Part shown: positions 1,919 through 25,663 of the stretch, in pieces
Position numbering within the stretch: the first letter of the stretch is position 1
How the letters are laid out: each line of letters starts with the position of its first letter
Virus record (IMG/VR): IMGVR_UViG_3300001533_002998
Span: 1 to 25,677 of that record
Origin: a virus
Strand: one strand, 5' to 3'
Length of the DNA: 25,677 bases
Program-made: the position numbers and the translations under genes
Notes under the pieces: generated by a model
Database searches by the model: none
Told to the model about the DNA's origin: nothing
Seen by the model: only the letters and a program-made list of their open reading frames with translations

Positions 1919-2022
1919 CTCCTATTCCTTCCTTTTCTTACTTTAGGAATATTGGTATTCCCATAAAGTTTTTTGTGTCTAGCTCGTCTTTGGGTGTTAG
2001 TTCGAGGTTTACCCTTTGGCAT
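1915..2022 (-). CDS. 35-aa highly basic micro-protein
   Basis: Starts MPKGKPRTNTQRRARHKKLY and ends in RKGRNRR. There is a strong ribosome binding site (GAGGAGGTGA) and two adjacent ATGs (2025 or 2022); the ATGATG overlaps the stop of the asparagine-synthetase-like gene. Its TGA overlaps the ATG of the next GT gene. It is extremely rich in Lys and Arg with no acidic residues, so it probably binds nucleic acid or an acidic partner. It shares the MPK start and an ARxK...YG pattern with the 45-aa protein at 13297-13434, which hints at a paralogous pair. No known family recognised. Confidence 0.65.
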   Translation of the reverse strand: MPKGKPRTNTQRRARHKKLYGNTNIPKVRKGRNRR

Positions 2023-3035
2023 CATTCACCTCCTCTCAATATTTTTTCTTGATATTTCAAATAAGAACTTTTTCCAAATTCGCCATCTGTTTTCTCCCAA
2101 CCTTTAATTTTATTAACTGGCAAAAGTGGTCCACCCATCTTACCAACTCTCCAAGTAATTTCATCTGGCAAAAGATTTTTTGTTGGCCATTCTTGACCAC
2201 CATCTAAAATAAACTTAATTGGTTTTGAAGCAAGTTCCCTTAAAAAATACTTACCATACTTACCATTTCTACTAATTTTCATTTCAGGCGATAAATTAAA
2301 CATAAAATCATCAAGTTCTTTATTATCTTGATAAGGTCTGATATTCGTAATCCCAAAGTATTTAGCAATCCCATTACTCATATCATCCATTTCGGGTCGT
2401 TTTAAAATTATATCTACCAAACACATATTATTTATTAAACTCTTTTTGTTATCCCAAATCTTTTCAACTTCTTTATAAGGTAAACCAACAAGTTTAGAAT
2501 ATAAAACAATCGGAGATGATAAAATTTTATCTATCTTACCCTTGTAATTTTCAAAAGATTCAACTTCATAAATTTTAAAAATATAATTCATAATTAAATG
2601 ACGAGCATAACCACACATTGTTTCATCTGGTCCATCACCTAAAACAACATTCTTAACTCCTCTTTTAGCCAATTCCTCATACATACAATAAAGAGTAAAG
2701 ATGTTGAAATGCGGTATTGGCCTACCAATAGCCTTTACAGCCTTTTTCATTACATCATCGAACCTACTTTCATCAAATTCAACGATAATTTGCTCTGTTA
2801 GTCCATTGTCTAAATAGTCAAAAACTCTTTGAGCATATTTAAATTCATTAAACTTTTTACCATAAGGAATATGAACTGTAACTACAGCTTTGGGAAGTTT
2901 GGGATTTATCTCTTTAGCTAAAGCAAACAAAAGAGAACTATCAATTCCACCAGAAAGAGTATAAACCGCATCTTTCGGAATTTTCCTAATTTCTTTTTTG
3001 ATTAACTTTTCAAGTTGATTTGTTTCTTTATCCAT
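2022..3035 (-). CDS. Asparagine-synthetase-like amidotransferase, synthetase domain only
   Basis: 337 aa. The PP-loop of ATP pyrophosphatases is clear: YTLSGGIDSSLLFAL (SGGIDSS at 28-34). VVLGDGPDETMCGY (GDGPDE at 133-138) is the second hallmark of the asparagine synthetase C-terminal domain. The N-terminal glutaminase half (Cys-1 nucleophile) is missing, so the enzyme must use free ammonia or a separate ammonia source. In O-antigen clusters such proteins amidate uronic acids to uronamides. Next to a UDP-glucose dehydrogenase-family gene, that is a plausible job here, though an inference. The start has GGAG eight bases upstream and overlaps the epimerase gene by 34 bases. Confidence 0.8.
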   Translation of the reverse strand: MDKETNQLEKLIKKEIRKIPKDAVYTLSGGIDSSLLFALAKEINPKLPKAVVTVHIPYGKKFNEFKYAQRVFDYLDNGLTEQIIVEFDESRFDDVMKKAVKAIGRPIPHFNIFTLYCMYEELAKRGVKNVVLGDGPDETMCGYARHLIMNYIFKIYEVESFENYKGKIDKILSSPIVLYSKLVGLPYKEVEKIWDNKKSLINNMCLVDIILKRPEMDDMSNGIAKYFGITNIRPYQDNKELDDFMFNLSPEMKISRNGKYGKYFLRELASKPIKFILDGGQEWPTKNLLPDEITWRVGKMGGPLLPVNKIKGWEKTDGEFGKSSYLKYQEKILRGGE

Positions 3036-3958
3036 TTATAAGTCTCCTTCATTCCAACTTCTAAAGGAACTTTTTCTGTCCATTTTAATAATTCTTTAGC
3101 TTTAGTATCATCAAAATTTCTACCTCTAATTCCCTGTGGACCTTCAATATGTTTAATCCCCAATTTCTTACCAGAGATTTTAATAATCATCTTGGCAAAA
3201 TCATTAATAGAAATATGCTCATTCTTCCCTAGATTAACTGGTTCTCGCACATCTGAATTCATTAAAGTATAAATTCCTTCTAAATTATCATTAATATACA
3301 TAAAAGAACGAGTTTGTTTACCATCTCCCCAAACCTCAATATCTTCGCCATCTTTAGCTAAAATAACTTTACGACACAAAGCGGCTGGAGCTTTTTCCCG
3401 ACCACCTTCATATTCACCTTCTGGACCATAGCAGTTCTGAAATCTAGCTATCCTTGTTTCCAAGCCATATTCCTCATAATAATATTGACAGCGGATTTCA
3501 TGAATAAGTTTTTCCCAACCATAACCTTCTTGGGGAAAAGCTGGTAAAGCATCTTCTTCTTTCAATAAAGGTGGATTGATATCTTGAAGTCGATGAACTG
3601 GATAAACACAAACTGAACTAGAAAAGAAATACTTTTTAACTTTGTTTATTCTACTTGCTTCTAAAGTGTAGATATTGATTAAAGAATTATTGTGAAGAAT
3701 TCGGGCACTATTACCCATAATAAAACCCATTCCACCCATGTCAGCAGCTAAATTATAAACTTCATCTATATCTTTAGTTGCTTTCAAGCAATTTCCCCAA
3801 TATCTTAAATCCATTTTTAAAAATTCATCTGCAGGTGATTTACTCCATTTCGGATATTTTAAATCAACACCACGAACCCAATATCCCTTTTCTTTAAGGA
3901 ATTTAACCAAATGACTTCCAATGAAACCACCAGCTCCACAAACTAAAATACGCTTCAT
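3002..3958 (-). CDS. NAD-dependent sugar epimerase, GDP-mannose 3,5-epimerase-like
   Basis: 318 aa short-chain dehydrogenase/reductase. GAGGFIG (8-14) binds NAD. Several stretches match what I know of plant GDP-mannose 3,5-epimerase: NLAADMGGMGFI (69-80), SSSVCVYP with the candidate acid/base Cys117, YGWEK (Tyr146 and Lys150), GGREKAPAALCRK with Lys189 as the second acid/base, GDGKQTRSF, and GIRGRN (277-281). That enzyme converts GDP-D-mannose to GDP-L-galactose or GDP-L-gulose. The ATG overlaps the upstream dehydrogenase stop (ATGA). A generic NDP-sugar epimerase remains possible, but the paired Cys and Lys acid/base sites favour the 3,5-epimerase reaction. Confidence 0.85.
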   Translation of the reverse strand: MKRILVCGAGGFIGSHLVKFLKEKGYWVRGVDLKYPKWSKSPADEFLKMDLRYWGNCLKATKDIDEVYNLAADMGGMGFIMGNSARILHNNSLINIYTLEASRINKVKKYFFSSSVCVYPVHRLQDINPPLLKEEDALPAFPQEGYGWEKLIHEIRCQYYYEEYGLETRIARFQNCYGPEGEYEGGREKAPAALCRKVILAKDGEDIEVWGDGKQTRSFMYINDNLEGIYTLMNSDVREPVNLGKNEHISINDFAKMIIKISGKKLGIKHIEGPQGIRGRNFDDTKAKELLKWTEKVPLEVGMKETYKWIKKQINLKS

Positions 3959-4770
3959 TTTTCCTTTCTAAATCTACGATTAGATTTCCAGACTTCTTCT
4001 AAAAACTTCGGCTTATAGCCTTTATCTTTACACAATTTAATCAAAGCTTTTAAATCTTTTGGAAAACACTTTCCCCCAAAACCTCTTGCCTTTTCAAAAA
4101 CAGAAGTATGAGTTTTTTCTACTCTTGGGTCTAATGCCCAACCTTCACGCATAGCATCATAATTAACTCCTAAAGTTTTACAAATTTCAAAAAATTCATT
4201 AGCCCAAGTAACCTTAGTTGCTCCCCAAATATTCTCAGCATATTTAACTAACTCCGCAGTTTTAGCATCTGTCTGATAGTAAAAAGTTCTCGGATTAAAA
4301 ACAGGTTTAAAAACAGAAATACAATAAGCTGTATCTTTAGAGTCGCCACCAAATATCTGAAAAGGCCAAGCTCTAGGATTAGACCATTCTTCAGGTAAAA
4401 AGTATTTACTCTCACCAAAATATTCAGGCGAAACAACGATTCTTTTCTTGTATTTCTTTTTAAGGTAATTAGTAGTCCCAGGTGGTATAGCAGATTTAAT
4501 CAAAATTACAGGCGTTTTTAGCCATTTAACACTTTCCTCAACAATCGAGGTATCACAAGACCAATCCTTGTTTTCTTTAGTCATCACACAAACAATTCCT
4601 AAATCACATTTATTAACAGCTTCTTTTGAATTAGTTAAACCATTAGAAACAAAAGGGTCATAAATTGCTTTTACCCAATCACCAAAAACTTGATGCATCG
4701 CTTTACCAACATGACCATAACCAACTATTCCAATCGTAAATTCACCATGACTAATAATTTTATTTTTCAT
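3955..4770 (-). CDS. UDP-glucose/GDP-mannose dehydrogenase family, short form
   Basis: 271 aa. FTIGIVGYGHVGKAM (11-25) is the NAD-binding Rossmann start. YAENIWGATKVTWANEF (177-193) matches the conserved helix with catalytic Lys186, and GFGGKCFPKD (230-239) carries the nucleophile Cys235. These enzymes oxidise a nucleotide sugar at C6 to a uronic acid in two steps. The usual members exceed 400 aa; this one stops shortly after the Cys motif and lacks the C-terminal domain that completes the nucleotide-sugar site. All catalytic residues are present, so it may be active with a changed substrate or a partner. It lies between a GT gene and the epimerase. Confidence 0.85.
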   Translation of the reverse strand: MKNKIISHGEFTIGIVGYGHVGKAMHQVFGDWVKAIYDPFVSNGLTNSKEAVNKCDLGIVCVMTKENKDWSCDTSIVEESVKWLKTPVILIKSAIPPGTTNYLKKKYKKRIVVSPEYFGESKYFLPEEWSNPRAWPFQIFGGDSKDTAYCISVFKPVFNPRTFYYQTDAKTAELVKYAENIWGATKVTWANEFFEICKTLGVNYDAMREGWALDPRVEKTHTSVFEKARGFGGKCFPKDLKALIKLCKDKGYKPKFLEEVWKSNRRFRKEK

Positions 4771-4772
4771 TT

Positions 4773-5894
4773 TTACTGCTTTTTATAAACAAATTCTGAT
4801 AAATTTTGTCTGATAAAAACATCTAAGTCTTTCTGATATTTTGATTTCTCATAAGCTTCTTTAGCTTGTGGTGATTGTCTCATTAAATCTAGCCAAGTAT
4901 CATGATAAATTAACATTGAGCCATTACACTTTCCATGTCTCTCCATATTCTTTTTATCCCAAGGTCTTTCTGTTAAGAGTTGATTAAAAGTCATCTTTTT
5001 ATGTTTATCAACAAAAGCTCTGTCAAGAGCATATTCCTTTTCTCCCCTAGCCATAATCTTATCCAAGACTTCCTTTCTACCATTTCTAAGATAATTCAAA
5101 TAAGTTCTTTCCCGCCAGTCATCACAACTCAAGGCGTAAGTTACTCCTAAAACATTTTCAATGTAATCATCGTGATTATAGGAATAACCTCTACCTGAAG
5201 CTAAATGAAAACCAATAGCATTAGGATTAATAGCTACCGTTGAGTTAAACATCCACCATTTCATATCCAAATAAAATTCACCGCCACCATAAGTTCGATG
5301 AACTTTGGGATAACCACCAAATTTAAAAAACTGGTCTTTTAAGACAGCTATCGAACAATGTCCTTGAGCAGGAATATACCACCAATCATTTGTTAATTTA
5401 TAATTATTCCAAGTTCCCTTCCATTCTTCACCTAGTTTAATGGTATAAGAATAACCAGTTCCCTGTGCTGTTATAGGATAAGCCCCCATCCAAGCAATAC
5501 AACCATGAACCAATCCACCAGATTCGTCAACCGTTCTTAAAATCTCTTTAAAGAAACCAGGCTTATAAGCCATATGAGCATCAGAAAAAAAGAGATACTT
5601 GCCTCTGGCTATCTTTGCTCCCTTGTTTCTAGCCGAATGATTACCTGCTAAAGGGTCTCTAATAATCCTCAAAACAGCATTGTAATACATACTCCTACCT
5701 TCTAAATAAGAAGTTGTTCCCGCTGTTCCTCTTTGAGGAAATTTATCATCATCAGAACAATTATCCACCACAATAATTTCTATCTCTTTAAAATCAAAAC
5801 CATCAGCTTCCCAACAATTTAGAATTGAATAAATTGTATGAACTATATTTGGAAACTCATTTCTTGCTGGAATAATAACACTCAATTTAATCAT
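4773..5894 (-). CDS. GT-A glycosyltransferase resembling polypeptide GalNAc-transferases
   Basis: 373 aa, with no membrane segment. SVIIPARNEF (5-14) and EIIVVDNCSDD (39-49) are the GT2/GT27 nucleotide-binding start. YLFFSDAHMAYKPGFF holds DAH (105-107), the DxH metal motif typical of polypeptide N-acetylgalactosaminyltransferases rather than the usual DxD. YGGGEFYLDMKWWMF (202-216) and NPNAIGFHLASGRG (224-236) occupy the places of the GGEN...W and SRVGHxxR motifs of those enzymes. Such enzymes attach GalNAc to Ser or Thr of proteins. The likeness is by motif spacing, not a computed alignment, so an ordinary GT2 role is possible. Its ATG overlaps the upstream stop (ATGA). Confidence 0.75.
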   Translation of the reverse strand: MIKLSVIIPARNEFPNIVHTIYSILNCWEADGFDFKEIEIIVVDNCSDDDKFPQRGTAGTTSYLEGRSMYYNAVLRIIRDPLAGNHSARNKGAKIARGKYLFFSDAHMAYKPGFFKEILRTVDESGGLVHGCIAWMGAYPITAQGTGYSYTIKLGEEWKGTWNNYKLTNDWWYIPAQGHCSIAVLKDQFFKFGGYPKVHRTYGGGEFYLDMKWWMFNSTVAINPNAIGFHLASGRGYSYNHDDYIENVLGVTYALSCDDWRERTYLNYLRNGRKEVLDKIMARGEKEYALDRAFVDKHKKMTFNQLLTERPWDKKNMERHGKCNGSMLIYHDTWLDLMRQSPQAKEAYEKSKYQKDLDVFIRQNLSEFVYKKQ

Positions 5895-6058
5895 TTTACC
5901 TTTTCTTCCTTTTTAGCCTCTTGATACATTTTTCTAATTTCTCTAGCAATTAAATAATCAGTTCCCATTTTAAACCATCCTTCATCTACAAACATAGTTG
6001 ACCACTTTTCTATCGCATTTTTACCTTTTTTACCAATTCTAATAACAAATCTTTTCAT
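5891..6058 (-). CDS. Small basic hypothetical protein
   Basis: 55 aa, starting MKRFVIRIGKKGKNAIEKW and ending in a charged helix (REIRKMYQEAKKEEKVK). A longer start at 6073 exists, but the ATG at 6058 forms a TAATG junction with the methyltransferase stop and is the more likely start. Its stop overlaps the next GT gene start. No family recognised and no cysteine or membrane motifs. Its position inside the glycan cassette suggests an accessory role, but nothing in the sequence shows one. Confidence 0.6.
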   Translation of the reverse strand: MKRFVIRIGKKGKNAIEKWSTMFVDEGWFKMGTDYLIAREIRKMYQEAKKEEKVK

Positions 6059-6993
6059 TATTTTGGATTCCACACTTTCGCTAGAATAGGTGTATGAGTT
6101 GTCTCTTTAATCTCTTCATAAGGTATTTCTACTCCAATCGCATTATGAAATTTAATATTATTAAAAAATTCGCTTAAAACATTGTAGAATTCAGGAGCAT
6201 TCCACTCTCTTACATGATATTTATTATGAGGCGTATTTTTTTGAATATGTTGATTATTTCGGTTAGGAGTGCTAATAAAAAATTCAGTCGGATTAATTAA
6301 ATCATAATTACCATTTTTATCTTTTCTAGTAAACTTATTGATAATTGTTTTTAAGAATGTTTTATAATCGTTAATGTGTTCAATAATCTCAATACAAACC
6401 ACCAAATCAAACTTCATTGTTTCTCTCGTATCTTCAAAAATATCAATATGGTCAAAAGAAACTTGGGAAGAATAATAAATTTGGTTTCTAGTCCTTTCAA
6501 AACATTGTTGAGCAAACCTTATACTCTTTTCATTTTTATCAATTCCCCAAACAAAATCCGCTTCTTGAGACATAATATTTGAACCTACTCCACAACCACA
6601 ACCAATATCTACAATCTTTGGTCGCCAAATAAACTTAGGATATTGAGGATGTTCCGTAATTTTTGTTAAACAATAATCCTTAATATAGGTATATAGTTGA
6701 CGAGTTGGTTTCCAGAGAATAACTCCGTGCCTTTCAAATAATCTAACATTAGTCGCCCATTGCTCCTTATCTTCAGCTTCTGGATTTTCCACATAATTAG
6801 ATTCAGTAATACCATTTTTACCTACTTCTCCTATTTCTATCTTAGGTTTTACTATTTTACCAGCAAATAACATTTCATTTTCCTCAACTTCTACTTTTTT
6901 ATCCTTTTCTTCCAATTTTTTATAACACTCATCACAAAGACTATTAACATAATCTTCTGGTATTTCTTTACCACATCTTTCACAAGTTCTCAT
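6058..6993 (-). CDS. SAM-dependent methyltransferase with N-terminal zinc ribbon
   Basis: 311 aa from the start chosen here. A further upstream ATG at 7032 would overlap the preceding gene by 53 bases and has no ribosome binding site, whereas ATG 6993 has GAGGAGG six bases upstream. Residues 4-23 carry CERC...CDEC, a small zinc ribbon. After a linker, IVDIGCGCGVGSN (127-139) is the SAM-binding motif I, WGIDKNE (149-155) the motif II acid, and FDLVVCIEIIEHI (195-207) the post-II segment of class I methyltransferases. Sugar-modifying methyltransferases of this type are common in glycan clusters. The zinc ribbon fusion is unusual. The substrate is unknown. Confidence 0.8.
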   Translation of the reverse strand: MRTCERCGKEIPEDYVNSLCDECYKKLEEKDKKVEVEENEMLFAGKIVKPKIEIGEVGKNGITESNYVENPEAEDKEQWATNVRLFERHGVILWKPTRQLYTYIKDYCLTKITEHPQYPKFIWRPKIVDIGCGCGVGSNIMSQEADFVWGIDKNEKSIRFAQQCFERTRNQIYYSSQVSFDHIDIFEDTRETMKFDLVVCIEIIEHINDYKTFLKTIINKFTRKDKNGNYDLINPTEFFISTPNRNNQHIQKNTPHNKYHVREWNAPEFYNVLSEFFNNIKFHNAIGVEIPYEEIKETTHTPILAKVWNPK

Positions 6994-8266
6994 AAGCCTC
7001 CTCAATAGCTGGGATAAGTTGATGTTTAGCAATATAATCTACATTAAACTCTTTTCTTAACTTAGTATTAGCTTTCAAAGACTTATTCTGATTCATTTCT
7101 GAAATTATCAACTTAGCTACATCTTCCAAGTATTTATCCTGACCTAACGGATATTGAGGCCTATCAACTAAAGAACCAAATCTAAAATATAAAGCATTTT
7201 CACCTGCAAAATCCCTCATGGCTGGAAAACTGTAATTAAGAATTAAAAGACATTTAGATGCCATTGCTTCTTTTAAAATCAAAGGTGAAGCCTCACTAAC
7301 CGAAGGGAAGATAAAGAGATTAGAAAGTTGAAACAAATCTGTCACTACTTTTCTAGGAACTCCTTGTTCATACTTGGGAGCATTGTGTAATGAAGTAAAA
7401 ATCAATTCTCTTCTTTCAACACCACAATCAGCAGCAAAACGATACATTTGTTCAATTTCTTCTTTTTGCTCTTGAGCATTAGCATGAGCATTGGGAACGA
7501 TAATACGAATAGAATTCCCCATTTTTTTAATGTAACTCATAATCCAAATAACTTTACTTAATTGTTTGCCATTATCATTCATTCTAGTTGTGGAAAGCGG
7601 GTAAACATCAATATAATCAGCTGACATTAAATCGTATTGTTCAATCAATTCTCTTGTAATCGGGTCAAAATCATAAAGTTCCCTAATATCCATCATATTA
7701 AAAATAGTTCTTACATCTTTAGGAAAAATACCAAACATCTCTGCAGCTCGAACAACATCAGTGTAATTAAGATAAATTAACCTTGAATTTTTAGGTAAGG
7801 TAAAAAGATTATCGTAAGGAGAACCATCCATTGTTGGTCTCAAAGAAGGAGCTGAATGTATCCAATGAAGCCATTTGATATGAGACAATCCTTCTTCAAT
7901 TCCTCGCCTCATTGCTTCATTGTAAGGAAGATAAGAATTAATGAAGATAATATCTTGAGTTAAGCAAACATCAATATCTTTCATATTTTCTTCCATCGCT
8001 TTTTTAGCTTTATTAACATCAGCTTCAAAATTCTTTAAATCACCCTTAGTATAAGGCTCTAAAATCAACTTGGGTAAAACTTTTCTGATTTCCACTCCTT
8101 TAGGAACTTTCTCATCATCTTCAAAATTCTCTAAAACAAACAAAACAGGTTCATACCCATATTTAACCAAAGCTATTAAAAGCTGTTGAGTAACAGAACA
8201 CAACGAAAAAGCTGGACTAAAATTTGAAAAGGTAGTTAAAATTCCCGTTTTAATTTTTTTATTCAT
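6980..8266 (-). CDS. GT-B glycosyltransferase, family 4-like
   Basis: 428 aa. The N-terminal half begins IKTGILTTFSNFSPAFSLCS, the glycine-poor start of a GT-B Rossmann domain. The C-terminal half has IIVPNAHAN, then LFIFPSVSEASPLILKEAMA, in which Glu325 and Glu333 form the EX7E signature of retaining GT4 enzymes that bind the nucleotide sugar. The domain ends with a helix returning to the N-terminal half (EEAYENL). No membrane segment. It is the first gene of the glycan cassette, starting two bases after the preceding small gene. The donor is unknown. Confidence 0.82.
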   Translation of the reverse strand: MNKKIKTGILTTFSNFSPAFSLCSVTQQLLIALVKYGYEPVLFVLENFEDDEKVPKGVEIRKVLPKLILEPYTKGDLKNFEADVNKAKKAMEENMKDIDVCLTQDIIFINSYLPYNEAMRRGIEEGLSHIKWLHWIHSAPSLRPTMDGSPYDNLFTLPKNSRLIYLNYTDVVRAAEMFGIFPKDVRTIFNMMDIRELYDFDPITRELIEQYDLMSADYIDVYPLSTTRMNDNGKQLSKVIWIMSYIKKMGNSIRIIVPNAHANAQEQKEEIEQMYRFAADCGVERRELIFTSLHNAPKYEQGVPRKVVTDLFQLSNLFIFPSVSEASPLILKEAMASKCLLILNYSFPAMRDFAGENALYFRFGSLVDRPQYPLGQDKYLEDVAKLIISEMNQNKSLKANTKLRKEFNVDYIAKHQLIPAIEEAYENL

Positions 8267-8267
8267 T

Positions 8268-8603
8268 TTAAAAATCTTCCTCTAAACCTTCACCAAAAAA
8301 TAGGTCTTCACCTTTATAACTAAATCTGTCTAATTCATTATCTACCCGATGTAAATTCACTTGTTTTGGTGGAGTAAATACCTCTCTCGGTGAAATTTTC
8401 TTCTGCTTAAACCTTTCTCGATAATCAGAAACTCTAGACTCTGCTTTTTTAATACCAGTTTCGGTTTCTTCTTCAATCGAGTAATCACCTAAAACATCCT
8501 CTACTTTACCATTACTAGGTTCAAACTTTGAGACTTTTGTCTCTTTATCATCAACTGGCACTAGATAATACTCTTTGCCATCTAAAACTATTTTTTTATT
8601 CAT
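8268..8603 (-). CDS. Hypothetical acidic protein
   Basis: 111 aa. MNKKIVLDGKEYYLVP begins with a short beta hairpin, followed by a charged, probably disordered middle (SIEEETETGIKKAESRVSDY) and an acidic tail FFGEGLEEDF. No known domain recognised. It sits between the small virion-region genes and the glycan cassette, two bases before the GT4 gene. Its low-complexity, charged character would suit an adaptor, but no function can be supported. Confidence 0.7.
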   Translation of the reverse strand: MNKKIVLDGKEYYLVPVDDKETKVSKFEPSNGKVEDVLGDYSIEEETETGIKKAESRVSDYRERFKQKKISPREVFTPPKQVNLHRVDNELDRFSYKGEDLFFGEGLEEDF

Positions 8604-8608
8604 CTTTC

Positions 8609-8974
8609 TTACTCCATTATTTTCTCAGGATGACGACTTCCCATATGCATAGCCAAATTCATTGGTGTCTTAAAAGTTTGCCCACAATATTTACAAACAA
8701 TTTTACCTGTTGGTTCTTTACTTGCTTCTACTACTCCTTCTTTTTTTTCCTTAACTTCTTCTAAAAAACCATAAATACCCTTCAAATAATCAGCAACATA
8801 ATCAGGAAACTCCAAAGTTTCTCCTGCTTTAATCGACCACTCAAGAGTATTCCCAGTCCACTTAAACTTACCAGTCTTAGAATCAATTAAAGGTTTCCCG
8901 TTCTGGTCAAATTCAATTTCTTCTATCCGATAGTCAATAATATCAAGTTTTGTTGGATTTCTTAGTATCTTCAT
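8609..8974 (-). CDS. C2H2 zinc-finger protein
   Basis: 121 aa. The C-terminus carries one classical finger: CKYCGQTFKTPMNLAMHMGS followed by RH, with spacing C-x2-C-x12-H-x4-H and the aromatic and Leu core positions in place. The N-terminal 75 residues read as a small mixed fold (WTGNTLEWSIKAGETLEFPDYVADYL) joined by a Lys/Glu-rich linker. The start has GGAGGTGA eight bases upstream and overlaps the previous gene by 32 bases. Single C2H2 fingers at the end of small phage proteins are known; here it lies among presumed virion genes, so a structural role is as possible as DNA binding. Confidence 0.75.
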   Translation of the reverse strand: MKILRNPTKLDIIDYRIEEIEFDQNGKPLIDSKTGKFKWTGNTLEWSIKAGETLEFPDYVADYLKGIYGFLEEVKEKKEGVVEASKEPTGKIVCKYCGQTFKTPMNLAMHMGSRHPEKIME

Positions 8975-9167
8975 TCTTTTTCACCTCCTTACTGTAAAGA
9001 CTACTTCTATCAATAATGAAACCGTAAATACTGGTTAAGTGTTTGACCAAAGCTAAACTTTCCTCATCATCACCTAAAACCATACTCCGTTTAGGTAGAA
9101 AAACAATCCTTCTACCTCTAAAATTAGTTTCAACTCTCAGACGGCTGAGATTCTTCAATACCTTCAT
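8943..9167 (-). CDS. Small hypothetical protein
   Basis: 74 aa: MKVLKNLSRLRVETNFRGRR, then IVFLPKRSMVLGDDEESLAL and a Lys/Asp-rich tail. It starts much like the next protein (MKILRN...) and both contain a similar IYGF segment, so the pair may be diverged duplicates. It overlaps its upstream neighbour by 38 bases and the downstream one by 32. No strong ribosome binding site is visible, consistent with translational coupling. Function unknown. Confidence 0.65.
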   Translation of the reverse strand: MKVLKNLSRLRVETNFRGRRIVFLPKRSMVLGDDEESLALVKHLTSIYGFIIDRSSLYSKEVKKNEDTKKSNKT

Positions 9168-9393
9168 GAATTCTTGCCATTATCTCCCTTCTGGCATTAG
9201 CAAACTCTTTAGGATTAACTTTCAAATCACCACGCCAATACAAATCAATAATGTTTTCAATTTGTTCTGTTCTACGAAAAAGGAAATAAACTTTTTGAAG
9301 ATTATGATTATCAATACCATCAACATTAAAACCAGAACATAATAAAGAAGCTGCCAAATTAATATCCGCTGTTTTAATCAGAGGTAAATCCAT
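9130..9393 (-). CDS. DUF5659-like protein
   Basis: 87 aa. IKTADINLAASLLCSGFNVD, then VYFLFRRTEQIENIIDLYWR, GDLKVNPKEFANARREIMARIHE. This follows the pattern I associate with DUF5659: an LAA.LL..GF start, a FxF strand, and a Y..g...v.p..f....r.l...i ending. These small proteins are frequent in metagenomic phages and of unknown function. The family match is from memory and not computed. It lies just after the capsid-associated genes and has a TATAAT box 19 bases before its ATG. Confidence 0.68.
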   Translation of the reverse strand: MDLPLIKTADINLAASLLCSGFNVDGIDNHNLQKVYFLFRRTEQIENIIDLYWRGDLKVNPKEFANARREIMARIHEGIEESQPSES

Positions 9394-9412
9394 TTTAATT
9401 TATCTTATTTTA

Positions 9413-9418
9413 ATTATA
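9413..9418 (-). promoter_or_regulatory. TATAAT box before the DUF5659-like gene
   Basis: The minus strand reads AGTATAATTAAAA, a one-base-shorter version of the GTTATAAT box found in other late gaps. A TTGACA occurs upstream, but only seven bases away, which is too close to serve as a normal -35. The ATG is 19 bases downstream. Confidence 0.3.
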
Positions 9419-9427
9419 CTAAATCTG

Positions 9428-9724
9428 TCAAATATAGGCAATAGCTAATTTTGAACTTGTACCTGTTAAAGTCGCATAACAAGCAGTAGAAAAAACAATT
9501 GGTTTAACAAAAGAAATACTTACACTTCCATATTGAGGTGCTCTTAAAACCCATTTGGCTGTTCCAGAACCATCAGTAGAATTATCTAAAATCACAGTTG
9601 CCCCAGTCGCAGCCGTTCCACCATCTAAAGTAATGGAAGAAATAGCACAAGAAGCAGTTCCATTAACCTGACCACTTTCAGTTAAAACTTTCGAATTATT
9701 TTCTGTTTCTAAATGTATAATCAT
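9428..9724 (-). CDS. Small beta-rich probable virion protein
   Basis: 98 aa with alternating hydrophobic and Ser/Thr/Gly residues (ATVILDNSTDGSGTAKWVLR, GSVSISFVKPIVFST), as expected of an all-beta surface protein. No cleavable signal or membrane helix. It overlaps the stop of the preceding Ser/Thr-tailed paralogue and so is part of the same translational unit. A head decoration or fibre-associated role is inferred from position and composition only. Confidence 0.7.
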   Translation of the reverse strand: MIIHLETENNSKVLTESGQVNGTASCAISSITLDGGTAATGATVILDNSTDGSGTAKWVLRAPQYGSVSISFVKPIVFSTACYATLTGTSSKLAIAYI

Positions 9725-10062
9725 TATGCTCCTGTTGTTGTCGAACTTGAACTGGTACTAGTACTTGTTGACGAACTCGTTGAACTAGATGTACTTGAAC
9801 TTGTACTTGTTGAAGTCACCAAAGTCTCTAACAACCTTACCCAAACTGCTGTTTTTCCACTAGTTTTTGTTTGAACATAAAACATTCCCCGATAAAGCGT
9901 ACTCTTAATAAAAGCCATCTCCCCACCTCTCCATTCAATAATATCAGCATCAACATCAGTTGAACTAACATCATAATAATCATAAGGAGTTGATGGCAAA
10001 ACCGTCACGATTTTAGCGTTTGCTCCTAATGTATTTAATTCATCAAGTTTTGTAAGACCCAT
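9724..10062 (-). CDS. Ser/Thr-tailed virion-type protein, paralogue 3
   Basis: 112 aa. The globular part shares LDELNTLGANAKIVTVLPST, then WRGGEMAFIKS, RGMFYVQTKTSG and WVRLLETLVTSTS with the next two genes upstream. Residues from about 85 to the end are nearly pure Ser and Thr, ending STTTGA. This copy has the longest tail. A good ribosome binding site (GGAGAAT) precedes the ATG. The three genes are clearly tandem duplicates just downstream of the major capsid gene, so decoration protein or short fibre are the best guesses. Ser/Thr-only tails are natural targets for O-glycosylation. Confidence 0.78.
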   Translation of the reverse strand: MGLTKLDELNTLGANAKIVTVLPSTPYDYYDVSSTDVDADIIEWRGGEMAFIKSTLYRGMFYVQTKTSGKTAVWVRLLETLVTSTSTSSSTSSSTSSSTSTSTSSSSTTTGA

Positions 10063-10066
10063 ATTA

Positions 10067-10372
10067 TTATTCTCCTGTTGTCGTGCTACTTGAACTTGTA
10101 CTTGTGCTTGTAGTAGTACTAGTCGAAGTAGCTAATGTTTCTAATAATCTTGTCCAAATAGCCGTTGTACCACTAGTTGATACTTGAACATAAAGCATCC
10201 CACGATAATCACTACTACCTGTTTTCATAAAAGCCATTTCCCCGCCTCTCCACTCAGTTGAATCAACATCATTAGAAGCTACCCCGTAATATTGATACGG
10301 AGCTGTTGGTAAAGCCGTTACGATTTTCGCATTGGCACACATAGCATTTAATTCATCAAATTTTGTTACCAT
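10067..10372 (-). CDS. Ser/Thr-tailed virion-type protein, paralogue 2
   Basis: 101 aa. Same layout as its neighbours: FDELNAMCANAKIVTALPTA, WRGGEMAFMKT, RGMLYVQVSTSG, WTRLLETLATSTS, then a Ser/Thr tail of about 20 residues ending TTTGE. It differs from the other copies mainly in the loop after SNDVDS and in tail length. The ATG is preceded by GGAGAATAATA. The gene is separated from the others by only two to four bases, so the three are co-translated from one message. Confidence 0.78.
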   Translation of the reverse strand: MVTKFDELNAMCANAKIVTALPTAPYQYYGVASNDVDSTEWRGGEMAFMKTGSSDYRGMLYVQVSTSGTTAIWTRLLETLATSTSTTTSTSTSSSSTTTGE

Positions 10373-10374
10373 TA

Positions 10375-10701
10375 TTATTCTCCTGTTGTTGTTGAACTAG
10401 TACTTGTACTAGTACTAGTTGAACTACTTGTAGTAGAGCTTGTACTTGTACTTGTACTAGTAGCTAAAGTTTCTAACAATCTAGCCCAAAGAGCTGTCGT
10501 TCCACTAGTATTCAATTGTAAAAAGAATTGTCCACCATAACTTCCACTTTTAATGAAAGCTAATTCACCACCACGCCACTCTTGATTATTCGTATCATTT
10601 GAAGACACATTCCAATAAATCTCTGGCGAGGTTGGTAAAGCGGTAACAATCTTGGCGTTAGCCGTAATCGCACTAATGTTATCAAATTTTGTTGCACTCA
10701 T
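10375..10701 (-). CDS. Ser/Thr-tailed virion-type protein, paralogue 1
   Basis: 108 aa, the first of the three tandem copies after the capsid gene. FDNISAITANAKIVTALPTS, WRGGELAFIKSG, GGQFFLQLNTSG, WARLLETLATSTS, then about 27 Ser/Thr residues ending TTTGE. The globular part is well conserved among the three while the tail length varies, as expected if tails expand and shrink through the repetitive DNA that encodes them (ACTAGTACTAGTAC-type repeats). The product is presumably exposed on the particle. It follows a terminator-like hairpin at 10711-10771. Confidence 0.78.
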   Translation of the reverse strand: MSATKFDNISAITANAKIVTALPTSPEIYWNVSSNDTNNQEWRGGELAFIKSGSYGGQFFLQLNTSGTTALWARLLETLATSTSTSTSSTTSSSTSTSTSTSSTTTGE

Positions 10702-10801: not shown

Positions 10802-11719
10802 TTAGCTAGAATACTCAGTTGCGTCTCCTTGAGACCCCCAGAAACCTCTCCAGTCTGACCAACCAGCAGAAAATCTGACTCGGACTTTGTAAAGAGCCGC
10901 ATCAGAATCAAAATTAAAGTCGTTTTTAAATTCAGGTCGAATTCTCCAGAACCAATTTAGAGCTTTATTACGAGAATCAGCTAAAAACCAAGCTGTTGAA
11001 GAAGTAATATATCTCCAGAAAATGTTTTTGAAAACACCTTCGTAAATATTGACATCATTATTAGCTGTTCCAGGTCGTAGAGAAGAACCAGTCATAATTT
11101 GAATTGTCTTACGCAAATCAATTGGAGCAATAATTGTATCAGCTTTAAAGCTAACAACCTGTCCTTTATCATTTAGAGCTTTCTCCAAAGCTAGTCGCCC
11201 TGTTTCCAAGTTAGTTTCTGAAAAAACAATACTAGTTGAAGAAGCATTAGATTGTGAACTTCCACCATCAGCTCGAGTATGGTCAGTTGAACAAAGCGGT
11301 TTACCATCACCATAACTGGTGTAAGAAGTACTAAAAGCATTATTCAAAATATCAGCAGCCACATCTTCAGTCGTATAAACAACCGATTTTGCTAATGCTT
11401 TAGGCATTGCTGCGATTACATTATTCTGGTCATCTTCTACTAATTCCTGTGAAACTTTGAAACCTTTAGTATATTTCAAATGAGCATAAGTTGTCTTGTA
11501 CATTTTAACTGGGTCTTCATAATCTAAAGCTCCCAATTCAGAAGTTTGAACCATTTTACCAAAACCAGTAGTTGCTGAATCAACCTCAGAATCCTTACTA
11601 GAAGTTAAAACATCAAAAACCATCGGCATGACCTGTGGTTCATCATCATACCTGTCAAAGAATATCTTCCTTATGGAAGGGTCTAGTTCGTCTGCGAAAT
11701 TTCCTCTTATTGCTGCCAT
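10802..11719 (-). CDS. Major capsid protein, Mu gpT-like
   Basis: 305 aa. MAAIRGNFADELDPSIRKIF, the GKPLCSTDHTRADGG segment (compare GKPLFSxxHxN in gpT-like heads), the LNDKGQVVSFKADTIIAPID region, and a C-terminal WFWRIRPEFKNDFNFDSDAA segment are what I associate with the Mu F/gpT-like major head subunit, an HK97-fold protein. Length fits the family. Its place after scaffold and head proteins and well downstream of the portal is typical. The ATG has AAGGA about seven bases upstream and a GTTATAAT box 18 bases before it. Confidence is high for the role, moderate for the exact family. Confidence 0.82.
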   Translation of the reverse strand: MAAIRGNFADELDPSIRKIFFDRYDDEPQVMPMVFDVLTSSKDSEVDSATTGFGKMVQTSELGALDYEDPVKMYKTTYAHLKYTKGFKVSQELVEDDQNNVIAAMPKALAKSVVYTTEDVAADILNNAFSTSYTSYGDGKPLCSTDHTRADGGSSQSNASSTSIVFSETNLETGRLALEKALNDKGQVVSFKADTIIAPIDLRKTIQIMTGSSLRPGTANNDVNIYEGVFKNIFWRYITSSTAWFLADSRNKALNWFWRIRPEFKNDFNFDSDAALYKVRVRFSAGWSDWRGFWGSQGDATEYSS

Positions 11720-16473: not shown

Positions 16474-18927
16474 TCAAGCAGGATAAATAGACCTTTTGAG
16501 CTTAAAGTTTCTCCTCTCTTTAAACTTTGGCGGAAAAGTCAATTCCAACTGGGAAGCCAGAGCATCAACCATGTCATCATTCTTGCCTTTGGGAAAACGC
16601 CTGATTTCGTCTTCAAGGTAATCGTTGTTAGCCACCTGCTTACAATGAAAAACCGAGCCAGTTTCGTATCTTGGTTCTAAACCTCTAATCCTCTGGTCTT
16701 TAGTTTTATCACTATGGGTCAACTCTTTCAAGGGAATAAAGTGGTTTTGCTTTTTCATCTCCTCGTAAGCAAAATATTGGAGGGTTTTCTGAAAGGCGGT
16801 TGTTTCAATGCCAACACTGATTGGTTTCCATTTGGAATCCCAGTAAAAGAGCTGGTCCAAAAGTCTTTTCGGCTGGCATTTCTCCCGCCACAAATCCAAA
16901 ATGTACCAGTTATTCATTTTATCCACTCCAACGCAAACCATGGCTGAATAGTCAGCTTCCTTCTTCTCACTGATGGCAGGGTCAACGGTAATAAACCTGT
17001 TTAAATCCACGCCTGTTAAATCCGTTTTCTCGTAATATTTAAAATCGAATTTAAAAACAGCGTCTTCAGCCAGAATCGGGTCTAACATGTACTGAGCTGC
17101 AAAGTGAGATGAACCTTGTTGTCTTTTCAATCCATCTAGAACATCCCAGCTTAGACGAGCAGGAAAGAGTAGTTTTCCTTGTCCCCATTCACCTTCGTAA
17201 GCAGGCATTTTCAAAACCTTAAAATCATCCAGGATGTTGTTTTCCTTGTCTTGTATCCAAGCGTAAAGGTCGGAATAATGCCAGGTAGTGTTATGGACAA
17301 CAAATCCTTCAGCAATAAAACTATGCTCACCTTCAACTGATAAATCATAAACTTCCTGTTCACCAATCTTCTTAATTGACCTTACAAATGTTTCTTCAAT
17401 TTCTTTAGGTTTATTTTTATCAAAATAAATGTAACAATGATGCGTATTAGACAAAATCTCATATTTTGAATGTGGAGCTTTTATGAATCTTTCTCTTGAA
17501 GAAATGTTATTTACTCTTAGTCCTGTGATAATTGCTAACCTTCTTATACCCTCAGCTAATTCTTTACTTGAAACTTCATAAGCAAACGTTCTTGTTCCAA
17601 CCCTACTTTTCCAAACATGATGTCCACTCTTCTCTTTTTTTATTTCCCAACCATCAGCATCAAGAAAACCCTGAATAAATTGTTTTCTTATTTCTGGATT
17701 CTGCTCAAAAATAAACGAAGGAACTTTTTTATTATGTGCTCCTCTTTCCAAACCATGTTCCAAAAGCCATCTACCTAATTCAGCCGAAGTCGTTACCCAA
17801 TTACCGTTCTTACATAAAAACTTACAACCAAAATTCTTCTCGAAAATATCTTTTATCTTATGGTTTCTATCATCATAAACACCCATGGCTATTCCAACAA
17901 CGTATCTTAAACTACCTTTCTGGTTAGGATGTAAAGTTACCCAACCATCACCAACCATATAACCTAAAGCCCACGATAACTCTTCACTAATCTCATTCTT
18001 ACCATCTTTTTTATAATGATAAAAAGAAATTTTATCTCCCTTTTTTAGTTCTTCCATTTTTACCCAAATGTTATTTCTTAAAAAGGGATGATTTTTAGTT
18101 CCTATTATCTTAGAATTATTTGTTCTTAATTCATAAACTTCAGAAACTCCTTGAGAAACATTAGCTGTAACTACTTTATTTCCTTTCCTTGTCTTTACCA
18201 TCTCTCCAGCGTTTATATCTTCAATGTTTTTCCAACCACCATTTGCCATTAAAACTTTAGTTCCAGAAACGAAACAACCAATGATGATGACTTGTTTATG
18301 ACCACCAGCCTTGCTGTCAACCAAGTCCAAAGTCCCTTTGTAAAAGTTAATCACCTTCTCTATCTGTTCCCGAGTGGTGATGTTTTTGTCGTTGACCATG
18401 TCATCCAAAAGAGCCATATTGTAGTGAGAACCAACAACGTTGGTGTCAGCCCCAAAAGCGGAAACAGTCGGGTCTTTCTGCTCGTAAGACTTTTCCCTAG
18501 CCACGGTAATCCTGTTTTCCCGCCAGCTGTCAGCCATTGTCGCCAAATTACCAAAAAGGTCAATGAAGGTTTCGTTCTTCTCCAGATGGTCTTTAACCTG
18601 TGATAAAAATTGACAAGCCATGGGATAAGTCGCATTGGCAATCAAAATCCTTTCGTTTGGGTTTTGAGCTATTCGCCACAAAGTATAGCCAACAGTTACG
18701 ATAGAAGATTTGAAAGAACCTCGGGGAAGAAGGATAAGCAGTTTTTTCTTGTTGACGTTGTCCTGAACAAAATTACAAACCTGGCGATGCAAAGGCTCGT
18801 AGATGTCAGGCCATTTCAAAACATCTCGGTTAAACTCGTAAAAGTGGGTTAGGTAATATTGAATCTTAGCCTGTTTAACCGCCTCTTGGGTCTTTTCTAT
18901 CTGGTCAATGATTTCTTTTTTATCCAT
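16474..18927 (-). CDS. terL: Large terminase subunit (TerL) interrupted by an intein
   Basis: 817 aa precursor; about 488 aa after removal of the 329-aa intein (residues 218-546). The ATPase half has Walker A LLPRGSFKSS (66-75) and Walker B MALLDDM (171-177). After splicing, VIIIG joins TTWHYSDL, the GTxWHxxDL motif that couples ATP use to DNA movement. The nuclease half carries FITVDPA (Asp649), VGIETTAF (Glu708) and KNDDMVDAL (Asp784/785/788). The protein packages DNA into heads with the small subunit. A weak AAGAAAG site precedes the ATG, which lies in a 17-base tandem duplication. Confidence 0.95.
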   Translation of the reverse strand: MDKKEIIDQIEKTQEAVKQAKIQYYLTHFYEFNRDVLKWPDIYEPLHRQVCNFVQDNVNKKKLLILLPRGSFKSSIVTVGYTLWRIAQNPNERILIANATYPMACQFLSQVKDHLEKNETFIDLFGNLATMADSWRENRITVAREKSYEQKDPTVSAFGADTNVVGSHYNMALLDDMVNDKNITTREQIEKVINFYKGTLDLVDSKAGGHKQVIIIGCFVSGTKVLMANGGWKNIEDINAGEMVKTRKGNKVVTANVSQGVSEVYELRTNNSKIIGTKNHPFLRNNIWVKMEELKKGDKISFYHYKKDGKNEISEELSWALGYMVGDGWVTLHPNQKGSLRYVVGIAMGVYDDRNHKIKDIFEKNFGCKFLCKNGNWVTTSAELGRWLLEHGLERGAHNKKVPSFIFEQNPEIRKQFIQGFLDADGWEIKKEKSGHHVWKSRVGTRTFAYEVSSKELAEGIRRLAIITGLRVNNISSRERFIKAPHSKYEILSNTHHCYIYFDKNKPKEIEETFVRSIKKIGEQEVYDLSVEGEHSFIAEGFVVHNTTWHYSDLYAWIQDKENNILDDFKVLKMPAYEGEWGQGKLLFPARLSWDVLDGLKRQQGSSHFAAQYMLDPILAEDAVFKFDFKYYEKTDLTGVDLNRFITVDPAISEKKEADYSAMVCVGVDKMNNWYILDLWREKCQPKRLLDQLFYWDSKWKPISVGIETTAFQKTLQYFAYEEMKKQNHFIPLKELTHSDKTKDQRIRGLEPRYETGSVFHCKQVANNDYLEDEIRRFPKGKNDDMVDALASQLELTFPPKFKERRNFKLKRSIYPA
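17290..18276 (-). mobile_element. LAGLIDADG-type intein inserted in terL
   Basis: Codes for residues 218-546 (329 aa). Splicing blocks are clear: block A starts CFVSGTKVLMANGG (Cys1); block B reads GTKNHPFL; block F reads EVYDLSVEGEHSFIAEGF; block G ends VVHN, followed by Thr as the +1 extein residue. Between them are two LAGLIDADG helices, LSWALGYMVGDGW and FIQGFLDADGW, each with an acidic residue, so the homing endonuclease looks intact. Insertion is exactly inside the GT of the GTxWH motif. The coding bases are more AT-rich than the flanking terL exteins, consistent with separate arrival. Confidence 0.95.
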
Positions 18928-25213: not shown

Positions 25214-25663
25214 ATGAAGAAATATAAATTAACTAAAGAAACTAAAACAGAATACGGAATTAAACTTTACCGCATTGAAGCTCTAAGGGACTTTGGTAAT
25301 GTGAAGAGAGGAGAAAAAGGTGGTTGGATAGAGAAAGAGGATAATTTAAACCAAGAAGGTGATGCGTGGGTTTATGGTAATGCGTGGGTTTTTGGTAATG
25401 CGGAGGTTTTTGGTAATGCGGAGGTTTATGGTAATGCGAGGGTTTTTGGTAATGCGGAGGTTTTTGGTAAGTTAAAACTTATCGGTGGCTATTTTTACCA
25501 TACCAAACGAAAGACCGAAGAAATAGAAAAGGTTGAATTAAGTGAAAATTACGAAATCCTTTGTAGCGAACCAAAACTGGAAGAAGAGGAAGATGATGAT
25601 TTATCAGGTGAGGAAGTAGAAGTTAAGATTAAAGGAAAAACCTATAAAGCAATTATTCAATGA
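25214..25663 (+). CDS. Hexapeptide-repeat (left-handed beta-helix type) phage protein
   Basis: 149 aa. The N-terminus YKLTKETKTEYGIKLYRIEA, LRDFGNVKRGEKGGWIEKED is a pattern I know from many phage proteins that carry these repeats. Residues about 50-85 are six repeats of G-[ND]-A-x-V-[YF], like rungs of a left-handed parallel beta-helix, encoded by six 18-bp units. A charged C-terminal part follows (EEEEDDDLSGEEVEVKIKGK). Their function is unknown; the repeat can change length by slippage. AAAGGAG precedes the ATG. Confidence 0.8.
   Translation: MKKYKLTKETKTEYGIKLYRIEALRDFGNVKRGEKGGWIEKEDNLNQEGDAWVYGNAWVFGNAEVFGNAEVYGNARVFGNAEVFGKLKLIGGYFYHTKRKTEEIEKVELSENYEILCSEPKLEEEEDDDLSGEEVEVKIKGKTYKAIIQ
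25361..25468 (+). repeat. Six tandem 18-bp repeats
   Basis: Units of the form GATGCGTGGGTTTATGGT / AATGCGGAGGTTTTTGGT follow one another exactly in frame, six times, inside the gene at 25214. The near-identity of DNA, not only protein, indicates recent expansion. Confidence 0.85.

Follow-up and report, generated by a model that had tools for sequence, protein, structure and literature searches.

Serine-rich repeat proteins of Gram-positive bacteria are glycosylated by GtfA/GtfB (GT4), and polypeptide GalNAc-transferases (GT27) carry out mucin-type O-glycosylation. Among phages, virion glycosylation has so far been described mainly for mycobacteriophages. For Che8 and Rita (Freeman et al. 2023, as cited in PMC11256854 and PMC12619734), glycans are reported at the C-termini of the capsid and tail-tube subunits, which act as a shield. 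We compare with these systems a gene run in an IMG/VR virus fragment of 25,677 bases, the whole of which is referred to here as the window; coordinates are those of the window and lie on the minus strand unless marked otherwise. The run encodes small proteins whose tails are pure Ser/Thr, together with a GT-B enzyme specific to phages (GT1), a GT-A enzyme with a DxH motif (the DxH enzyme) and further sugar-pathway proteins. We consider it probable that this region is a phage-encoded virion O-glycosylation cassette, in which GT1 and/or the DxH enzyme act on the Ser/Thr tails and the other enzymes build a modified glycan.

Phage virion glycosylation as such is thus already known; what look new are the mucin-like substrates, the GT27-fold enzyme and the GT1 partner. 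As in the mycobacteriophages, the glycosyltransferases are phage-encoded. The presumed acceptors here, on the other hand, are small proteins in their own right, each with a pure Ser/Thr tail. The enzymes differ as well: in a tblastn search of 50,697 records of isolated phages, GT1 gave no match and the DxH enzyme none apart from one remote relative, which does not come from a mycobacteriophage.

Ser/Thr-tailed proteins beside the capsid gene

The major capsid protein gene (10802-11719; phrog_371, E 9e-20) lies directly upstream of three tandem paralogues encoding proteins of 108 aa (10375-10701), 101 aa (10067-10372) and 112 aa (9724-10062), the other two being 66-70% identical to the one at 9724-10062. 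Each contains a run of nothing but Ser and Thr, of 26 residues in the first (10384-10461), 18 in the second (10076-10129) and 28 in the third (9733-9816), after which GE or GA closes the protein. The initial annotation had credited all three with such ends of 20-30 residues, which describes the first and third correctly, whereas the middle one is slightly short. Apart from the tails, no six-frame ORF of the window has a Ser/Thr run longer than six residues, and the probability of the tail runs arising by chance is negligible because Ser and Thr together make up only 11% of the called proteins.

The tails are written in mixed codons, with AGY, TCN and ACN all present. Between the tails of two close relatives we count 31 codon differences, of which 26 are synonymous and five exchange Ser and Thr, with none leading to another residue. 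The conserved property of the tails is their Ser/Thr composition and not the sequence itself. Slippage of a DNA microsatellite as the source of the tails is ruled out by the mixed codons and by the confinement of all 31 codon changes to Ser and Thr.

Pfam and PHROGs gave nothing usable when searched with the tailed proteins' N-terminal domain; searching with exact peptides found no relatives of a tailed protein, but alignment did recover them. Immediately behind the gene for this capsid, related phages carry one annotated as encoding a cement or minor capsid protein. No homology was found between the tailed proteins and these cement or minor capsid proteins, and a tailed protein gave only a marginal match (E 0.006, the database being tiny) to the gene that flanks the capsid gene on its opposite side. 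Judging from gene order, the tailed proteins are probably located at the head surface. A further small ORF of the head region (98 aa, 9428-9724) has a weak match to a head-decoration family that is not significant (E 0.07). Another (8609-8974) encodes a C2H2-like zinc finger (CKYCGQTFKTPMNLAMHMGSRHPE) and has homologues in relatives. Elsewhere in the window, the terminase large subunit (16474-18927, 817 aa) carries an apparent intein of ~330 aa (CFVSGTKVLMANGG ... HSFIAEGFVVHN), and the terminase of the close relatives L019 and L020 is intein-free at 488 aa; an ORF at 25214-25663 on the plus strand contains a run of GNAxVFGNAxVxGNA hexapeptide-like repeats.

A GT27-like enzyme and its neighbouring sugar-pathway genes

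The DxH enzyme (373 aa, 4773-5894) is assigned by Pfam to Glycos_transf_2. A DAH motif, GGGE and a distal His had been pointed out in it initially, and these are indeed present as D105-A-H107, GGGE203-206 and H230 and are kept across relatives, some of which have DGH. The AlphaFold model (pLDDT 88.9, pTM 0.89, from an input alignment of 21 sequences) was compared with the PDB, and all of the best 50 matches are polypeptide GalNAc-transferases of GT27 (E 3.5e-17 to 3e-14, TM normalized to the query 0.51-0.65). The family profile likewise reaches GT27 chains down to E 8e-13, with chondroitin synthase (9e-7) and lipid-acceptor GT2s ranking behind. A comparison with GT27 had been set beforehand as the structural check, and in both fold and profile the enzyme is nearest to the polypeptide GalNAc-transferases and not to GT2s with lipid or sugar acceptors; the initial proposal was not refuted by this check. 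The enzyme shares with mucin-type O-glycosylation the GT-A fold, DxH, the distal His, the GG(G)E region and, putatively, Ser/Thr-rich acceptors.

There are also differences from GT27. The position of the WGGEN-type motif reads YGGGE-F in the phage family, with the Glu kept and the Trp and Asn not; the C-terminal ricin-type lectin domain is absent, residues 241-364 being predicted as mostly helical; and the setting is the cytoplasm of a phage-infected cell. As it lacks both the lectin domain and the Asn of GGEN, the enzyme is termed GT27-like here and is not placed in GT27 itself. Matches in a viral structure library are to unannotated GT2s of phages and giant viruses, which carry no information on the acceptor, and PHROGs gave weak matches to GtrB-like O-antigen conversion (E 0.01-0.02).

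Tunturiibacter phage Tunturi_4, which was isolated on a cultured host, encodes in gp2 (XOB77330.1) a DxH GT2 that is related to the 373-aa enzyme (23% identity at E 2e-10; E 9e-40 with the profile) and has a DNH motif and a GEE region. Its gene, on the other hand, sits between those for terminase and portal, and the first 20 kb hold neither GT1 nor a Ser/Thr run. In L041 and L044, remote relatives of the DxH enzyme are found near long SVSTTRSSS-type repeats, which are Ser/Thr-rich but broken by Arg and Lys.

At least four further transferases had been proposed for the operon, and these can be named: GT1 (6980-8266), a methyltransferase (6058-7032), two GT2-type glycosyltransferases (1220-1918 and 613-1227) and a probable GT2-like ORF (50-622; no Pfam hit, 49% homologue in L011). 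The last three lie beyond the segment first annotated, yet are part of the same gene run. The methyltransferase is SAM-dependent, has an N-terminal zinc-ribbon-like CxxC...CxxC and forms the third member of a GT1-methyltransferase-DxH cassette. A zinc-ribbon-like N-terminus is also present on the GT2 at 12079-13146 of L263, and may be a targeting module shared within the cassette.

Three more genes follow. A UDP-sugar dehydrogenase-like protein (271 aa, 3955-4770), which keeps the catalytic GGxCxxK and in which the C-terminal UDP-binding domain was not matched, is a possible source of uronic acid; short forms of this kind, of about 250-270 aa, recur among related phages. The other two are an NAD-dependent sugar epimerase/dehydratase (SDR, YxxxK; 3002-3958) and an asparagine-synthase-like amidotransferase with an SGGxDS PP-loop and without a glutaminase domain (2022-3035). 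The combination of the dehydrogenase-like protein with its retained catalytic Cys, the epimerase, the PP-loop amidotransferase and the methyltransferase suggests a modified uronic acid as the product.

GT1 as the partner of Ser/Thr runs

GT1 (428 aa) is a GT4-like, retaining-type GT-B glycosyltransferase whose EX7E motif (E325-X7-E333) is invariant over 38 sequences. In the PDB, its structure matches GT-B enzymes of the GT4/GT5/GT20 type with poor global superposition, and the nearest solved structures are enzymes acting on small molecules or polysaccharides; the modelled structure thus gives no pointer to a protein acceptor. A retaining GT-B enzyme and long Ser-rich acceptor stretches are what GT1 would share with GtfA/GtfB. 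It differs in that its PDB profile search returned BshA-type enzymes only, with no GtfA chain among the matches, in that neither a GtfB-like partner nor an accessory secretion system was seen, and in that the acceptors would be phage proteins. With no match in the phage records above and seven in 84,980 prokaryote species genomes, GT1 is essentially a gene of uncultivated viruses. GT1 relatives in L276 and L277 come with Ser/Thr runs of 61 and 18 residues, respectively. Their contigs had been binned to MAGs, one of Pacearchaeota and the other of Deltaproteobacteria; both are probably viral contigs and may hold a clue to the host.

The association of Ser/Thr runs with these enzymes was approached from three sides. 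First, relatives of the DxH enzyme were collected without regard to tails. In window-type phages, the neighbours of the DxH enzyme match genes of the window, and nearly all records of this clade whose downstream sequence is sufficient have GT1, the methyltransferase and the DxH enzyme together as one cassette. In phages with different structural genes, the same order of GT1 (428 aa), zinc-ribbon methyltransferase and DxH enzyme recurs as a three-gene cassette, and many of these phages encode long Ser/Thr runs on unrelated proteins, either of 51-192 aa just upstream of GT1 or large and structural.

Second, 80 contigs were drawn by a 14-base anchored DNA pattern that is blind to glycosyltransferases; 46 have true Ser/Thr-run ORFs, and 34 have the pattern and no clear long Ser/Thr reading frame. 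GT1 (E<1e-70) is found in 8 of the 46 against none of the 34 (one-sided Fisher p ~0.009, calculated by hand). The DxH profile matches in five of the 46, three of them strongly; all five also carry GT1, and among the 46 contigs no DxH match was found in one lacking it. PF00535 enzymes above the cut-off occur in 16/46 Ser/Thr-run contigs versus 2/30 random contigs. GT1 is absent from 38 of the 46, many of which are fragments and many of which have T/S-rich linkers in large proteins; Ser/Thr runs therefore also occur outside the cassette. Linkers of the PTTTTTSSSSTSTS type in large structural proteins without GT1 (L061, L067, L109, L122 and others) represent a separate, widespread phenomenon.

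Third, a scan with GT1 itself yielded 80 loci, which form 63 clusters. In 41 of the 63, the examined piece contains a Ser/Thr run of 15 residues or more, against 0/30 random-word control contigs, which were examined at whole length for GT1 and for Ser/Thr runs (Fisher p 1e-10); 5 or 6 of the 13 scan seeds came from Ser/Thr-selected contigs, and the seeding itself may account for part of this enrichment. No such bias affects the phages reached through the DxH enzyme. Where a capsid gene lies in the piece, Ser/Thr runs accompany GT1 in 34/35 loci, namely 25/26 with the window-type capsid and 9/9 with a second capsid type. In 10 phages with window-family capsids and no GT1, on the other hand, no sense-strand run of 10 or more was present in the regions (25/26 versus 0/10, p ~4e-8 by hand). 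The nearest Ser/Thr gene lies upstream of GT1 in 39 of the 41 clusters; in one of the 39, L261, it is on the opposite strand and possibly spurious. In nine clusters it lies within 25 bp of GT1. The 115 Ser/Thr carriers fall into 43 groups lacking BLAST similarity outside the runs, a number that may separate some distantly homologous groups. The unrelated carriers and the two capsid types rule out that a single phage lineage has specialized in such tails.

These counts bear on the reading of the tails as unmodified, flexible hydrophilic spacers, with the glycosyltransferases acting elsewhere, for instance on host surface glycans so as to exclude other phages in the style of O-antigen conversion. 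The linker-like Ser/Thr runs common in other phage proteins without GT1 and the GtrB-like PHROG matches of the DxH enzyme would fit such a scheme. It accounts poorly for the tight coupling of Ser/Thr genes upstream of GT1 on unrelated carriers, for a co-occurrence of 34/35 that drops to 0/10 in GT1-free relatives and for a DxH fold that is GT27-like and not of the lipid-acceptor kind, and we consider it unlikely.

A second alternative is that phage DNA is what the cassette glycosylates, as happens in T-even phages and further phages with glycan-hypermodified DNA, the link to Ser/Thr proteins being incidental. GT1 does have a GT-B fold, and virus-encoded DNA-hypermodifying glycosyltransferases are known, as cited in PMC12619734. 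The DxH fold, however, matches protein-acceptor enzymes, the cassette genes come after structural genes, and the linkage to Ser/Thr runs would be left without a reason. Furthermore, a thymidylate-synthase-like hydroxymethylase, as in the hydroxymethyl-pyrimidine DNA route, was found in 0/16 GT1-bearing records, the control being positive in 9/14 genomes; on this absence DNA glycosylation was counted out, and we hold it to be highly improbable.

Within the preferred reading, virion O-glycosylation, it may be asked which enzyme is the tails' partner. Six phages (L255, L258, L263, L264, L269 and L274) have Ser/Thr tails and GT1 and no DxH GT2 within 10 kb downstream, and in the first five of these the tailed proteins are triple. 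The general partner is thus GT1, with the DxH enzyme as an accessory found in some clades, that of the window among them; these phages rule out that the tails have the DxH enzyme as their sole partner. The expectation that tails and the DxH enzyme would co-occur in related phages therefore needs to be modified: the tails do track glycosyltransferases far above controls, but the constant companion is GT1.

A putative route to a glycosylated virion

We propose that the small post-capsid proteins, probably exposed on the head, display flexible, mucin-like Ser/Thr tails, onto which GT1, and here probably also the GT27-like DxH enzyme, would place sugars in the cytoplasm of the host. Extension of the glycan would fall to the other GT2 enzymes, and the methyltransferase, UDP-sugar dehydrogenase-like protein, epimerase and asparagine-synthase-like amidotransferase would produce or cap a modified sugar, which may be a uronic acid that is methylated or amidated.

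As to initiation, our guess gives an even chance to GT1 acting alone. It is a less likely course that the DxH enzyme initiates on Ser/Thr throughout the clade and GT1 merely extends, a sub-case of the cassette reading whose weight overlaps with it. The GT27 fold, DxH, distal His and GGGE speak for this course, as does the single cassette of GT1, methyltransferase and DxH enzyme in nearly all window-clade records with sufficient downstream sequence; the six phages with GT1 and tails lacking a DxH GT2 within 10 kb downstream, and the lack of any DxH match in Ser/Thr-run contigs without GT1, speak against it. Least likely of the three is that both enzymes, or another one, initiate.

More broadly, and only tentatively, since we put it at somewhat below an even chance, phages may have evolved or preserved a mucin-type O-glycosylation of their own. 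It would combine dedicated virion proteins whose tails are purely Ser/Thr, a GT-B initiator that is specific to phages and constitutes a new family of protein O-glycosyltransferases, and a lectin-less enzyme of GT27 fold, as a cassette reused on many unrelated carriers in several structural types of phage. The evidence points to a widespread group of uncultivated phages that spends several kilobases on decorating mucin-like tails. It names the phage-restricted GT1 family as a likely protein O-glycosyltransferase, and provides a non-eukaryotic enzyme of GT27 fold whose obvious candidate substrate is encoded beside it, both points being directly testable with recombinant proteins.
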